35,334 nucleotides of DNA, from positions 1 through 35,334 of the forward strand of contig JAAZKF010000035.1 in the NCBI GenBank assembly GCA_012799975.1, given 5' to 3'. The notes under the pieces were generated by a model, which worked only from the letters and a program-made list of their open reading frames with translations, did no database searches and was not told where the DNA came from. Below, piece after piece: positions 1,798 through 7,469 of this stretch (the stretch's first letter is position 1; each line of letters begins with the position of its first letter). The position numbers and the translations under genes are program-made. This stretch comes from Burkholderiales bacterium. Lineage in GTDB: Bacteria; Vulcanimicrobiota; Xenobia; Xenobiales; Xenobiaceae.

Positions 1798-3774
1798 TTG
1801 CTTGAAATCGCTTGCCCCTCCTGCGGCGACGCCATCCGCTTTCGCTCCGAAAGCTCGGTCTACTCGACCTGTCCTTCATGCCGTTCCCTGCTGGTCCGCC
1901 ATGACGTGAACGTCGAGCTGCTGGGGAAGGTAGCCGACCTGCAGCCCGACGGAACTCCCATCCAGATCGGGACCTCCGGGGTCTTCAACGGGGCGGCCTT
2001 CGAGGTGCTGGGACGGATCCAGATCCTCCACCCCGAAGGCTACTGGAACGAGTGGTTCCTTCTTTTCCAGGATGGCTCCCACGGCTGGCTGGGCGAGGCC
2101 ATGGGCGAGTACTTCGTCTCGTCCTTGGCCCAGATCGAGCCCCAGGCCATACCGGACTTCGCCGACCTGCATGTGGGCAAGGCAATGCTCGTCGGCTCGC
2201 GCGAGCTGGTCGTGACCAACCTGGCCCAGGCCCGGGCTGTCTCCTTCCAGGGCGAGCTGCCCTTCGTGATGAGCACGGAATACGAGCTTCCCTATGCGGA
2301 CTTCCGCTCCTCAGGACGGACGGGGGCCACCCTGGACTACTCCGAAGAGCAGCCCCTCCTCTTCGTGGGCTCCTTCCTGGACTTCGAAGAGCTGCAATTC
2401 AGGGGGCTGCGTGACCCTGAGGAGATGGTCGAGCAGCGCTCGGCTGCCCAAGCCAAGGTACTGCGCTGCCCCAACTGTGGAGCTCCCCACGAGCTGGCCG
2501 GAGGCCCCCGCAGCCAAACCCTGGCCTGCCCCTTCTGCGACGCCGGGATCGACCTGACCGACCCCAACTACGGCCTTCTGTGGAAGATCCAGAAGGCCCC
2601 CAAGGAGGAGCCGGATATCCCCCTGGGCAGCAAGGGAAACCTGGACGGTGCGGTCTGGGAATGCCTGGGCTTCCAACGCCGCTTCGTGCGCATCGAGGGC
2701 ATCGACTACTACTGGAGCGAGTACGTCTGCTACAACCGGGAACGAGGCTACCGTTACCTGGTGGAGTCTTCGGGCCACTGGACCTGGGTAGCTCCCTTGC
2801 ACAAGCTGCCGACGGGCTCGGACGGACGGCCGGTACACGGCTGGCCCCCCCGGGACTTCCTGGTGCTGAACGGGAAGAAGTTCAAACACTTCCAGTCCGC
2901 TACCGGGCAGGTCTCCTACGTGAAAGGAGAATTCCCCTGGCGGGTCAAGGTGGAGGACTCCGCCGGGCTGCATGACTATGTCTGCCCGCCCCAGATCCTC
3001 TCGGCCGAGGTCACCGCCGACGGGATGACCTGGTCGCTGGGTCGTTACCTGGAACCTGAAGAGGTCTGGAGCGCCTTCGAACTTTCCGGGAATCCGCCCG
3101 TACGCAGCGGCGTCGGAGCCAACCAGCCCTCCCCCCTGGCCGATACTCTGCGCACGGCCTGGATGCAGTATGCGGTCTTCTTCCTGGTCGGCTTCCTGAT
3201 AATGATCGGCTTCTCGATCCTTTCGGCGCGAGCCCCCGTCCTGGTCCAGGAATTCGTGACCGTGCAGGGTGAGGAACCCAGCGTGGTGACCCGTCCCTTC
3301 GAACTGGAGGGGCGGACCTCGAACCTGGTGATCCGCCTCCAGACGGATCTCGACAACCGCTGGGCCTACTTCGACATGGCCCTGATCAACGAAAAGACCC
3401 GCGAGGCCAGGATCTTCTCGCAGAGCGTCAGCTACTACCACGGTTCTTCAGGAGGCGAGAGCTGGCGGGAGGGCAACAGGACCGAGGATGTGACGGTCCC
3501 CTCGGTCCCCTCCGGCACCTACATCCTTCGGATCGAGCCCCAGACCGGCACGGGGAACACGCCCGAAAACCTCTCAGCCAAGGACTCCAATGCCGGTCAG
3601 CCGGTCCTGCAATACAAAATCTTCCTGACCCGGGATGTTCCCTCCTGGGGCTATATGTGGTTCCTGATGCTCGTACTGGCGATCTACCCCATCTTTATCT
3701 TGATCCGCTGCGGGTCCTTCGAACAGAAGCGCTGGATGGAGAGCGACCACCCCCCCGGGGAATCCTCGGATTAG
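1798..3774 (+). CDS. DUF4178 domain protein with two zinc ribbons, two DUF4178-like units and C-terminal TM segments
   Basis: CPSC..CPSC and CPNC..CPFC ribbons; LGKVADLQPDGTPIQIGTSGVFNGAAFEVLGRIQ...WNEWFLLFQDGSHGWLGEAMGEYFVS resembles DUF4178, and GSKGNLDGAVWECLGFQRR...YYWSEYVCYNRERGYRYLVESSGHWTWV looks like a second copy. TTG start is tentative. Confidence 0.8.
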   Translation: MLEIACPSCGDAIRFRSESSVYSTCPSCRSLLVRHDVNVELLGKVADLQPDGTPIQIGTSGVFNGAAFEVLGRIQILHPEGYWNEWFLLFQDGSHGWLGEAMGEYFVSSLAQIEPQAIPDFADLHVGKAMLVGSRELVVTNLAQARAVSFQGELPFVMSTEYELPYADFRSSGRTGATLDYSEEQPLLFVGSFLDFEELQFRGLRDPEEMVEQRSAAQAKVLRCPNCGAPHELAGGPRSQTLACPFCDAGIDLTDPNYGLLWKIQKAPKEEPDIPLGSKGNLDGAVWECLGFQRRFVRIEGIDYYWSEYVCYNRERGYRYLVESSGHWTWVAPLHKLPTGSDGRPVHGWPPRDFLVLNGKKFKHFQSATGQVSYVKGEFPWRVKVEDSAGLHDYVCPPQILSAEVTADGMTWSLGRYLEPEEVWSAFELSGNPPVRSGVGANQPSPLADTLRTAWMQYAVFFLVGFLIMIGFSILSARAPVLVQEFVTVQGEEPSVVTRPFELEGRTSNLVIRLQTDLDNRWAYFDMALINEKTREARIFSQSVSYYHGSSGGESWREGNRTEDVTVPSVPSGTYILRIEPQTGTGNTPENLSAKDSNAGQPVLQYKIFLTRDVPSWGYMWFLMLVLAIYPIFILIRCGSFEQKRWMESDHPPGESSD

Positions 3775-3792
3775 TCTGGTACGGAGACGAAC

Positions 3793-3966
3793 ATGAAATT
3801 CTGGTACGGAATCCTGGGAACCGCCGCCTTGGCCCTGCTCTTCTGGATCCAATTCGTGGGTTGGGCACCGACTCCGGTCGACCAGTTGCCGGATGCCCCC
3901 AAGAACATCCGCAACAACCCGGCTGCCTATCGGAGCTTCTACGCTGTCGGCTTCCACGGCAAGTAG
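3793..3966 (+). CDS. 57-aa small single-TM protein within the DUF4178/SpeE cassette (absent from supplied ORF track)
   Basis: ATG at 3793, TAG at 3964-3966; MKFWYGILGTAALALLFWIQFVGWAPTPVDQLPDAPKNIRNNPAAYRSFYAVGFHGK. Lies 18 bp after the DUF4178 gene and 12 bp before the SpeE-like gene. Confidence 0.75.
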   Translation: MKFWYGILGTAALALLFWIQFVGWAPTPVDQLPDAPKNIRNNPAAYRSFYAVGFHGK

Positions 3967-3978
3967 GCCAGGACTTCG

Positions 3979-5475
3979 ATGCCCCAACTGATCCTGCTGT
4001 CGGTTTTCGTAATCGCGACTTGCGGGCTGGTCTACGAGTTGCTGGCGGGGACCCTGGCCAGCTATCTGTTGGGCGACTCGGTCCTGCAGTTCTCGACGGT
4101 AATCGGGACCTACCTCTTCGCCATGGGGGTGGGATCGTGGTTTTCGAAGTTCGTGGTCCGGGGATTGCTGGCCCGATTCATCCAACTCCAGATCATGGTG
4201 GGTCTGCTGGGCGGCCTCTCAGCTCCCCTGCTCTTCCTGACCTTCGGTCATGCCTCGGCGGGAGCCTTCCGGCTGCTCTTGTACCTGGTGGTCTTCCTGC
4301 TCGGAATGTTGGTCGGCCTGGAGATCCCCCTCATCCTGCGCATCCTGAAGGACCGCCTGGAGTTCCGCGACCTGGTCTCGCAGGTCCTGGCCCTGGACTA
4401 TATCGGCGCCCTCCTGGCCTCAGTCCTCTTCCCGATGGTCCTGGTCCCCTATCTGGGCCTGATCCGGACGGCCTGCTTCTTCGGTCTGATCAACGTGGCC
4501 GTGGCCCTGGTCTTCCTGCACACCATGAGGTCCCAAGTGGCTTCCCGGGCCTGGCTGGGCATCCAGGCCGGTCTGGCAGCACTGGTCCTGGTCGGATGTT
4601 TCGCGGCCTCCGAGCACATCACCCGGCTCTCTGAAGAAGCGCTGTACACCGACGAAATCATCCTGACCCGCGACAGCCCCTACCAGCGGATGGTGCTGAC
4701 GCGCCATCGCGATGACCTGCGCCTGTATCTGAACAACAACCTGCAGTTCTCATCCCAGGACGAATACCGGTATCACGAGGCCCTGGTCCAACCCGCCCTG
4801 GCCAGCGCCCCCAATCCCCGCCGGGTCCTGCTCCTGGGCGGAGGCGACGGCCTGGCGGCCCGCGAGGTCTTGCGCGATCCGCGCGTCCAGTCGATAACCC
4901 TGGTCGATCTGGACCCCGAGATGACCCGAACCTTCGCCACCCACCCGCTTCTGACCAGCCTCAACGAGGGGTCACTGACCTCGCCCCAAGTGCGGGTGGT
5001 CAACCAGGACGCCTTCATCTGGCTGGAAGAGAACCCGGACATCTTCGACGTCATCCTGGTGGACTTCCCCGACCCCAGCAACTTCTCGCTCGGGAAGCTC
5101 TATACCACAACCTTCTACCGCAGGTTGCGCGCCCACCTGGCTCCAGACGGGGCTTGCGCCATCCAGTGCACCTCCCCGATGTTCGCCCGGCGCTCCTTCT
5201 GGTGCATCGTCCAGACCCTGGCCGATGTGGGCTTCCAGGTCCGTCCCTACCACACCTACGTCCCTTCTTTCGGGGAGTGGGGCTTCTGCCTGGCGACGAC
5301 CCGGGAGGTTCCCGTCCCCCAGGCCCGGGGCGAGCGCTACCTGACCCCTGCGACCTGCGCAGCCATGTTCGAATTCCCCGCGGACATCGAATCCCTGCCC
5401 GTCGAAGTCAACCACCTGTACAATCAGGCCCTGGTACGCTACTACGACGCCGAATGGCGGGCCATCATCGAGTGA
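3979..5475 (+). CDS. Polytopic membrane protein with C-terminal spermidine-synthase-like (polyamine aminopropyltransferase) domain
   Basis: N-terminal multi-TM half; NLQFSSQDEYRYHEALVQPAL, RVLLLGGGDGLAAREVL, ITLVDLDPEM, FDVILVDFPDPSNFSLGKLYTTTFYRRL match PAPT motifs. Confidence 0.88.
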   Translation: MPQLILLSVFVIATCGLVYELLAGTLASYLLGDSVLQFSTVIGTYLFAMGVGSWFSKFVVRGLLARFIQLQIMVGLLGGLSAPLLFLTFGHASAGAFRLLLYLVVFLLGMLVGLEIPLILRILKDRLEFRDLVSQVLALDYIGALLASVLFPMVLVPYLGLIRTACFFGLINVAVALVFLHTMRSQVASRAWLGIQAGLAALVLVGCFAASEHITRLSEEALYTDEIILTRDSPYQRMVLTRHRDDLRLYLNNNLQFSSQDEYRYHEALVQPALASAPNPRRVLLLGGGDGLAAREVLRDPRVQSITLVDLDPEMTRTFATHPLLTSLNEGSLTSPQVRVVNQDAFIWLEENPDIFDVILVDFPDPSNFSLGKLYTTTFYRRLRAHLAPDGACAIQCTSPMFARRSFWCIVQTLADVGFQVRPYHTYVPSFGEWGFCLATTREVPVPQARGERYLTPATCAAMFEFPADIESLPVEVNHLYNQALVRYYDAEWRAIIE

Positions 5476-7073
5476 TCGGCCGCCGCGAATTCCTGGCTGG
5501 ACTGGGGATGGGAGGCGCCCTGCTGGCGGCTGCAGGCTGCCGCCGTCGAAAAGACTTTCCGGGTTGCCTGGTGGGCAGCGCTGAACGTCGGGGGCACGGA
5601 CTCTTCGCGCCCCCTCGCAAGCCCCCCGCTCGTCGTGAACGCGTCGCCGTGGCCATCCTGGGAAGCGGCGTGGCCGGCCTGAGTGCAGCCTGGAAACTGG
5701 GACGGGAGGGCATGGATGATTTCCGGGTCCTGGAAGTAGAGGACCAGGCGGGCGGCAACTGCCGATACGCCGAGTATCCCGAATCCAGGGCGCCCTGGGC
5801 CGCCCACTACCTGCCCGTTCCGACCCAGGAGGCCCGAGCCACCCTGGAACTTCTCGATGAGCTGGGCCTGGTGCGAGGTTGGACCCCATCCGGGGACCCG
5901 ATCTACGATGAGCGCCATCTCTGTCACGCCCCGGACGAGCGCCTGTATCAGTTCGGACGTTGGGAGGAAGGGCTCTACCCCCACCTGGGCGCCACCCCCG
6001 ACGACCTGCGCCAGATCCGGGCCTTCTATGCCGAAGTCGAGCGCTGGCAGTCCCGACTCGACAAATCGGGCCGTCGGGCCTTTGCCATCCCCGTCGACCT
6101 GTCTTCTCCGGAAGCCCGGGAACTGGACCTGGTCTCGATGTCCCAGTACCTGACGAGTCAGGGGTGGACCTCGGAAAGACTGCGCTGGCACATCGAGTAT
6201 GGTTGTCGCGACGACTACGGGACGTCGCTGGAGTCGACCTCGGCCTGGGCCGGAATGCACTACTTCGCCAGCCGCTCGCCGGATCGGGCCGGGCCACCCG
6301 GGGCGCTCTTCACCTGGCCGGAGGGGAACGGCTGGCTGCTCCGGGCCATGCTGGAGCGCGTCGGCCCCCGGCTGACCACAGGAACGCTGGTGTACAGAGT
6401 CGCCGAGGCAGGTCGCGGGGTAGAGGTGGACTACCTGGACCAGGCTCGCGGTGAACCGGTGCGCCTGCAAGCCGACCGCGTGGTGTATGCCCTGCCGACC
6501 TTCCAGCGTGCCCGTATCCTGGAAGGCAGTCCTGCCTTCCGAGATTTCACCTTCTGTCCCTGGATCGTAGCCAACCTGGTCCTGGACCGTCCACCCGAAT
6601 CGGGGCATGGTTTTCCCTTGAGCTGGGACAACGTGATCTACGACTCCCCGTCCCTGGGCTACGTCGTGGCCACCCATCAGGACCTGAAATCCCGAACCAC
6701 CGGGCCCACGGTCCTGACCTGGTACCGTTCCTTCGTCGAGGACCCCTCACAGATCCGCTGGGGGTTGCTGAGCAGGACCTGGGAGAGCTTCCGGGACGAG
6801 ATTCTGGCCGACCTGGTCCCGGTGCACCCGGACCTGCCCGAGAAGATCCGGAGACTGGACGTGATGGTCCTGGGCCACGCGATGATCCGCCCCGTTCCGG
6901 GGCTGGTCTGGGGTTCCGAGCGCCGCCGGGCTGCCCTCCCCCAAGGTCGGATCCACTTCGCCCACTCCGATCTGTCGGGAATCTCACTTTTCGAGGAGGC
7001 CCAATATCACGGGGTCCGAGCCGCTCAGGAGGTGCTCCGGGCCGGCGGAGTCTCCTTCGACTCTTCGCTATAG
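5472..7073 (+). CDS. FAD-dependent amine oxidase-like flavoprotein with Tat signal and lipobox
   Basis: GTG start overlaps the upstream stop (GTGA). N-terminus VIGRREFLAGLGMGGALLAAAGC has RRxFL plus a lipobox Cys; AILGSGVAGLSAAWKLGREG...VLEVEDQAGGN is an FAD-binding Rossmann motif. Confidence 0.82.
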   Translation: MIGRREFLAGLGMGGALLAAAGCRRRKDFPGCLVGSAERRGHGLFAPPRKPPARRERVAVAILGSGVAGLSAAWKLGREGMDDFRVLEVEDQAGGNCRYAEYPESRAPWAAHYLPVPTQEARATLELLDELGLVRGWTPSGDPIYDERHLCHAPDERLYQFGRWEEGLYPHLGATPDDLRQIRAFYAEVERWQSRLDKSGRRAFAIPVDLSSPEARELDLVSMSQYLTSQGWTSERLRWHIEYGCRDDYGTSLESTSAWAGMHYFASRSPDRAGPPGALFTWPEGNGWLLRAMLERVGPRLTTGTLVYRVAEAGRGVEVDYLDQARGEPVRLQADRVVYALPTFQRARILEGSPAFRDFTFCPWIVANLVLDRPPESGHGFPLSWDNVIYDSPSLGYVVATHQDLKSRTTGPTVLTWYRSFVEDPSQIRWGLLSRTWESFRDEILADLVPVHPDLPEKIRRLDVMVLGHAMIRPVPGLVWGSERRRAALPQGRIHFAHSDLSGISLFEEAQYHGVRAAQEVLRAGGVSFDSSL

Positions 7074-7208
7074 CAGAATTCGCTCGGACCGCCAGGGACC
7101 AGGGAGGCAGGCACGAAAGAGGCCCCTGGAGTGCAGGCCTGACCATCCTGGCGCCCTGGGACTCCAGTAAGCCCGGAGCGCGGGCATCTGAGGAAGGTGA
7201 AGACACTG

Positions 7209-7469
7209 ATGACTGGTGAATGGGTCGAAGCCCTCAAAACCCTGGTCTGGGCCCTGGTGGCCTCTGTAGCCATGAGCCTGTCCTTGGGACTCCTGATGTT
7301 CGTCTGGGACAAGATGACCCCCCGCATAGACGAATGGGAGGAGCTCAAGAAGGGCAACGTGGCCGTGGCCATCGTGATGGCCGCCGTGATCCTGACCTTC
7401 GGAATCGTGATAGCCTCTGTCCTGCATCAAGGGATCACCATCCAACCCCCGAACCTCGGGATGCCCTGA
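7209..7469 (+). CDS. DUF350-family small membrane protein
   Basis: MTGEWVEALKTLVWALVASVAMSLSLGLLMFVWDKMTPRIDEWEELKKGNVAVAIVMAAVILTFGIVIAS; 'ELKKGNVAVAIVMAAVILTFGIVIAS' is typical of DUF350. AGGAAGG SD upstream; GTG 7197 is the alternative start. Confidence 0.8.
   Translation: MTGEWVEALKTLVWALVASVAMSLSLGLLMFVWDKMTPRIDEWEELKKGNVAVAIVMAAVILTFGIVIASVLHQGITIQPPNLGMP

Follow-up and report, generated by a model that had tools for sequence, protein, structure and literature searches.

The window (the whole stretch of DNA that was analysed, 35,334 nt) contains a set of five genes encoding a DUF4178 protein, a 57-aa membrane protein, a membrane-fused SpeE, a Tat-signal FAD protein and a DUF350 protein. 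These genes, the flanking genes and the sites discussed below are:

715-1725, + strand: TerC, Alx-type (TIGR03718, 403 bits), directly upstream of DUF4178
1798-3774, + strand: DUF4178 gene, TTG start, 658 aa (PF13785 twice, 91 bits, plus two zinc ribbons)
3793-3966, + strand: gene of the 57-aa single-TM protein, MKFWYG...RNNPAAYRSFYAVGFHGK, of the lysine-tail family
3910-3963, + strand: predicted extracytoplasmic tail RNNPAAYRSFYAVGFHGK of the 57-aa protein, based on relatives and position-picked ORFs
3961-3963, + strand: AAG codon of the C-terminal Lys of the 57-aa protein, invariant in position among clusters
3979-5475, + strand: membrane-fused aminopropyltransferase SpeE of the PRK03612/NF002956 type (NF002956, 659.5 bits, cut-off 472)
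5472-7073, + strand: Tat-signal FAD protein with amine-oxidase fold (PF01593, 45 bits, cut-off 19.8; PF13450)
6573-6575, + strand: codon of N368 of the FAD protein, the classical catalytic-Lys position as assigned by eye
7197-7469, + strand: DUF350 (YjfL-type) short membrane protein, 90 aa (PF03994, 53 bits)
downstream of DUF350, + strand: glutamine synthetase (GlnA)

The five genes are collinear and separated, in order, by 18, 12, -4 and 123 bp, in agreement with the original prediction; the GTG start of the FAD gene sits inside the SpeE stop codon (GTGA overlap). The first four genes form an operon with conserved gene order, and DUF350 is a linked but mobile member of the system. No internal terminators or excess of promoters were found across the five genes, which carries little weight, and an Rfam search of the 35,334-nt window gave no match. 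TerC was considered as a member of the system and rejected, being present in only one of 80 loci of FAD relatives. Further upstream, positions 262-567 encode a 101-aa protein to which no family was assigned.

Conservation of the gene set and published neighbourhoods

FAD orthologues with 44-92% identity were found in 13 of 18 genomes of the host's class, and the sampled phylum outside the class gave a single further genome with a FAD match, a weak one. Among named genomes, UBP9_UBA6111 is a close relative, with 90% identity in FAD. In 12 class loci the genes for DUF4178, the small protein, SpeE and FAD follow each other in this order, overlapping or nearly so, as far as the contigs reach; the small protein of L031 escaped the profile and was recovered in a later reading of the locus. 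The 57-aa protein is conserved within the host's class. The same gene order recurs across many phyla, and the conserved co-occurrence on which the original prediction had staked its proposal was thus found both within the class and far beyond it.

Relatives of the FAD protein in named genomes number at least 564. The 80 that match best come from Acidobacteria, Pseudomonadota, Planctomycetota, Myxococcota, Elusimicrobia, Nitrospiria, Cytophagales and others, with SpeE nearby in 59 and DUF4178 in 42 of the 80, counted within a 10-kb range that is shortened by contig ends. DUF4178 was encoded elsewhere in the genome in all 15 FAD genomes checked, which were picked mostly for DUF4178 not being seen beside FAD, and TM-SpeE was present in five of five tested genomes without DUF4178 near FAD. 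The position of DUF350 varies: it follows FAD in L021, L022 and L023, whereas most other families have it ahead of SpeE and after the small protein, and in one it is divergent.

In many phyla the operon is extended by genes for AdoMet decarboxylase and for a protein of the Band_7_1-SHOCT type. At L044 and on Novosphingobium plasmid p1, band-7, DUF4178, small protein, DUF350, SpeE, FAD and SpeD make up one operon. Small AdoMet decarboxylases (L044:11663-12043, L085:5710-6081, L099:11347-11724) vary in position, lying either 5' of DUF4178 or 3' of FAD. A family without a Pfam match flanks the operon in eight loci (e.g., L042:5283-6272, L050:11632-12828 and L100:4567-5667).

The five-gene set is a local variant of published neighbourhoods, belonging to a widespread and poorly understood membrane operon, and is not new as a gene neighbourhood. 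PspA-CesT/Tir operons that combine 7TM-SpeE, DUF350, the Ctha_1186 lipoprotein and DUF4178 were reported by Ravi et al. (2024; PMC11237479) in a context of membrane-stress assembly complexes. The same paper places under an ATP-grasp group a variant that contains band-7-SHOCT together with an AdoMet decarboxylase and a polyamine oxidase. Within the literature searched, DUF4178 was named only in that paper. The window shares with the PspA operon the membrane-fused SpeE, DUF350, DUF4178 and one anchored protein, which is Lys-ending in the loci read. It differs in having a 57-aa TM protein as anchor in place of a lipoprotein, in having an added FAD gene, and in being flanked by TerC and GlnA with no PspA or CesT/Tir gene in cis. 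PspA gave no match in the genome assembly (3.65 Mb, about 96% complete). Band_7_1 and SpeD are encoded in trans to the five-gene set, in contrast to the relatives that carry the genes of the band-7-SHOCT/AdoMet decarboxylase variant within the operon. The operons of L044 and plasmid p1 very probably have the same gene set as this published variant, for which the consulted sections of Ravi et al. (2024) do not mention a Lys-ending tail.

A C-terminal lysine on membrane-anchored tails

The 57-aa protein, treated as a minor member in the original prediction, carries the most constrained feature of the operon and is likely its substrate. The Lys-ending pattern was first noticed when the genes between DUF4178 and SpeE were listed, and a mechanical rule was applied afterwards. 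The rule accepted ORFs of 30-110 residues that start between -60 and +200 bp from the DUF4178 stop and have a hydrophobic N-terminal stretch, and it ignored the last residue. Run on 78 DUF4178-SpeE loci, with the actinobacterial relatives (DUF4247/DUF2617 type) left outside the survey, it yielded 73 non-DUF350 ORFs.

A C-terminal Lys was found in 69 of these 73 position-picked ORFs (63 distinct sequences). The four ORFs without it are spurious and occur in three loci that each also hold a Lys-ending ORF. After clustering at 50% identity, Lys was the last residue in 30 of 30 clusters, preceded by Gly in 20 and by His in 10 (-GK/-HK). The background frequency of a C-terminal Lys was 7.5% of 657 genes, so that independent draws would give 30 of 30 with a probability of about 1e-34, the clusters not being fully independent. 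Some clusters can hardly be aligned with each other except at the last residues, and none of the representatives tested, the 57-aa protein of the window included, matched a Pfam or NCBIfam model. The charge bias of the small proteins favours an N-in/C-out orientation by 26 to 2, with 2 ties.

Two trivial origins of the pattern were considered and rejected. Chance introduced by ORF picking is countered by the blindness of the rule to the last residue and by the control with DUF350 from the same interval, where none of 40 sequences ended in Lys. An overlap artefact, in which AAATGA would supply the Lys, is countered by the 33 of 63 distinct small-protein genes that have no start codon overlapping the stop. 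Because both Lys codons, AAA and AAG, and all three stop codons are used as well, the terminal Lys is chosen at the protein level. The tail regularity is a solid result in its own right and is unreported in the literature searched.

The same ending is found on other carriers. PspA-type operons, sampled from Bacteroidota, Acidobacteriota, one gammaproteobacterium and one Alteromonas plasmid, encode between DUF4178 and DUF350/SpeE a lipoprotein-like anchored protein of about 230-510 aa with a Ser/Arg/Gly-rich stretch before the Lys end. Its endings include -GFGK, -GGK, -RRGK, -SSGK and -ARGK (L185-L189, L194-L197, L199, L246, L255, L258, L260), and judging by its position it is probably the Ctha_1186 protein. 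On the Alteromonas mediterranea plasmid (L246:5944-12602), SpeE-TM, SpeD, a toxic-anion-resistance protein, DUF4178, the Lys-ending lipoprotein-like protein and DUF350 follow each other in one gene run. Where the small protein is absent, DUF4178 itself ends in -GSHK or -GGK (L191, L192, L204, L253, L257). These tail-fused DUF4178 proteins always have one or three TMs, whereas those of the window and L022 have two; the odd number would place the tail outside, provided that the zinc-ribbon domain is inside. Other Lys-ending tails are -YGSHK in Burkholderia and -NRVK in Tritonibacter.

PspA-type operons lack the FAD gene and keep the lysine tail, which suggests that the tail tracks SpeE and DUF350 and not FAD, and the possibility that it is a substrate of the FAD protein only was rejected on this basis. 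No Lys-tail protein was present at L198, a PspA-DUF350-DUF4178 locus from which SpeE is absent. Two Calditrichota had no recognisable tail protein near TM-SpeE in the 16 kb read, the TM-SpeE gene adjoining a cysteine-synthase-like gene in both genomes.

The predicted enzymes and their location

The NF002956 match spans SpeE residues 4-495, and the score with the model for canonical soluble SpeE (TIGR00417) was 117 bits, below its cut-off of 249.55. The predicted structure (AlphaFold pLDDT 90.5) has seven long TM helices (residues 2-209) followed by the SpeE domain (residues ~224-440). Foldseek superposed this domain on a Thermus aminopropyltransferase with a TM-score of 0.75 by target length, the nearest fold being the Thermus triamine/agmatine aminopropyltransferase. 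In an alignment to 3anx, the residues of the decarboxylated-SAM site and the diamine site (Gln, DE..YHE, GGGDG, DxD, D, DxxD) are present. Q256, D261, E262, Y265, H266, E267, D290, D312, D344, D362 and D365 are invariant in 54 of 54 sequences, and D310 is found in 52 of 54. Judged by these residues, the SpeE of the window retains an aminopropyltransferase active site, which bears out the aminopropyltransferase-like domain named in the original prediction.

Loops 2-3, 4-5 and 6-7 of SpeE contain about 9.3 Lys and Arg residues per sequence as compared to 2.4 in the remaining loops, a bias seen in 54 of 54 sequences and, in the same sense, in ten PspA-type SpeE relatives. Together with the seven helices, these loop charges place the N-terminus inside and the enzyme domain outside. 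Based on helix count, positive-inside charges and the usual export signals, the tail, the SpeE domain and the FAD protein are all predicted to be extracytoplasmic. The lipoprotein anchors of other operons would be exported too, provided that their signals behave normally, as is assumed for the Tat signal of the FAD protein; all players in the proposed reaction would then be on the outside. Decarboxylated SAM is made inside the cell and, as far as known, is cytoplasmic. An active site on the outside would therefore need an exporter of decarboxylated SAM.

The DUF4178 protein contains two CxxC zinc ribbons, with Cys pairs that are invariant in the family alignment, two DUF4178 domains, and TM segments at residues 459-477 and 618-636 as indicated by hydropathy. 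We infer that an extracytoplasmic beta-rich domain lies between the TMs and that the C-terminus is inside.

The FAD protein starts with VIGRREFLAGLGMGGALLAAAGC, which holds a Tat motif and a lipobox-like Cys (RREFL...AAAGC), and it is probably lipid-anchored at C23. The twin arginine is present in 61 of 70 relatives and is followed by a Cys in 42 of 70, in line with the export signal that had been noted originally. The GxGxxG motif and E90 are conserved in the family. With the AlphaFold model (pLDDT 92.6), the top Foldseek structures were bacterial MAO, putrescine oxidase and MAO A/B, and SpdH of P. aeruginosa was also listed. Classical flavin amine oxidases (MAO, PAO, LSD1) have a catalytic Lys near flavin N5. 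Among the 70 sequences no conserved Lys was found, with no Lys column above 47%; N368, matched to the catalytic-Lys position by eye, is Asn in 67 of 70. In a profile alignment with the PDB only short segments and the dinucleotide fold matched, which leaves the N368 assignment by eye. The original prediction of an oxidase is supported as to the fold, with MAO and putrescine oxidase as nearest structures; oxidase activity itself is putative, as no Lys is conserved in the family.

In two Calditrichota (L067:9403-11620, L062:6957-9193), FAD is directly preceded by the gene of a cytochrome c with two haem-binding CxxCH motifs (di-haem), which suggests that the FAD protein is a dehydrogenase feeding periplasmic carriers. 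The C-termini of these cytochromes are -RKMRK and -RGMRK.

A possible modification of the terminal lysine

The terminal Lys of the anchored tail is the best candidate target of the polyamine-type enzyme of the operon. As a tentative reading, which we judge to be close to evenly balanced, the SpeE domain aminopropylates this Lys on the extracytoplasmic side of the membrane. The small anchored protein would present a flexible tail with Lys as its last residue, and the SpeE domain would transfer the aminopropyl group of decarboxylated SAM to the side-chain amine. The butylamine end of the Lys side chain, a four-carbon primary amine, would mimic putrescine, and a flexible tail that ends in Lys behind Gly or His could fit the narrow SpeE pocket. 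The tail would thereby become hypusine-like and more cationic at the outer face of the membrane. The seven-helix part of SpeE-TM, which is transporter-like, may export the donor, DUF4178 and DUF350 may be the scaffold in the membrane, on whose cytoplasmic face DUF4178 would act as a sensor or coupling element, and the Tat flavoprotein may oxidise or remove the modification and pass electrons to periplasmic carriers. An aminopropylation is suggested by the AdoMet decarboxylase gene, which is part of the operon in many phyla and is found in trans here. The Calditrichota TM-SpeE without a tail protein counts against it. That such a transporter-fused, SpeE-like enzyme acts on C-terminal Lys outside the cell as a widespread bacterial modification, with a small TM protein, a lipoprotein or DUF4178 as carrier depending on lineage, is a possible but more doubtful extension.

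The proposed product can be compared with known polyamine-derived modifications. It resembles deoxyhypusine/hypusine in eIF5A in placing a polyamine-derived group on a Lys side chain, but hypusine is formed on an internal Lys, from spermidine, in the cytoplasm and by an unrelated enzyme. In E. coli, YjfC and YgiC, from the YjfIJKLMC and YgiBC sets, are reported to be peptide-spermidine ligases (Pederick et al., 2023, cited in PMC12568646). These loci likewise have PspA and DUF350 neighbours and a tailed partner beside a spermidine-peptide enzyme; they differ in using an ATP-grasp ligase and a C-terminal Gly instead of an aminopropyltransferase and a C-terminal Lys. YjfM (L245:5388-7192), encoded beside YjfC, has a Gly/Ser/Arg-rich tail ending in -GHWGG, possibly a parallel carrier tail with Gly in place of Lys. 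No publication on aminopropyl-lysine was found in the literature search. For 'aminopropylation of other substrates', Ravi et al. (2024; PMC11237479) refer to the work of Li et al. (2019).

The same genome encodes, on another contig, SpeD and a soluble canonical SpeE side by side. With this separate pair available for ordinary spermidine, the operon is unlikely to serve the synthesis of free polyamines. A fusion of an MFS transporter and spermidine synthase, studied by Li, Kurihara, Kim, Liang and Michael in 2019, is reportedly linked to AdoMet decarboxylase and DUF350 and is said not to complement a spermidine synthase deletion. The SpeE of the window is the same fusion, and a candidate acceptor is put forward here.

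These observations bear on an alternative that we consider unlikely: TM-SpeE would supply the envelope with a free polyamine-like compound, either spermidine or a different aminopropylated amine, which the flavoprotein would degrade outside, and the tail would be no more than a docking or assembly signal. SpeE residues like those of diamine-using enzymes, the Thermus fold, and a flavoprotein closest to monoamine and putrescine oxidases, with SpdH also listed, would all agree with a free product. The separate SpeD-SpeE pair and the reported failure of the fusion to replace spermidine synthase argue against it, and a fixed extreme C-terminal residue across unrelated anchors would be left unexplained. 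The original proposal, in which a polyamine-like group is formed and then oxidised outside, is supported in part, by the enzyme site and the exported fold.

The terminal Lys could instead be the target of another reaction, such as oxidation to an aldehyde by the flavoprotein for cross-linking, or joining to an envelope polymer, with SpeE acting on another target. An exported amine-oxidase fold encoded in the same operon fits this, as does the di-haem cytochrome c gene before FAD in two Calditrichota, which would suit a periplasmic dehydrogenase. The retention of the tail in operons without the FAD gene and the lack of an amine-oxidase-type Lys in the FAD family nevertheless make such a reaction rather improbable. 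C-terminal residues often act as recognition signals, and the conserved Lys could likewise serve for recognition or assembly, in non-covalent binding or quality control, for instance by a partner in PspA or band-7 complexes. The published context of membrane-stress assembly complexes is compatible with such a role. However, a bare -K with variable residues upstream (-GK, -HK, -RVK) is poor for recognition and suits a narrow enzyme pocket, and the enzyme encoded next to the tail has an intact aminopropyl-transfer site; we therefore consider a pure binding signal improbable, slightly more so than another reaction at the Lys.

Many bacteria have a membrane-fused spermidine synthase, for which a substrate other than putrescine has been suggested in the literature. 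The invariant C-terminal Lys on three types of carrier reduces the substrate question to one mass-spectrometry experiment. If aminopropylation of the tail is confirmed, it would represent a new protein modification of the bacterial envelope and would tie polyamine chemistry to the PspA and band-7 systems of membrane stress. In that case, YjfC and YgiC, the peptide ligases of E. coli, would represent another way of meeting a similar need.
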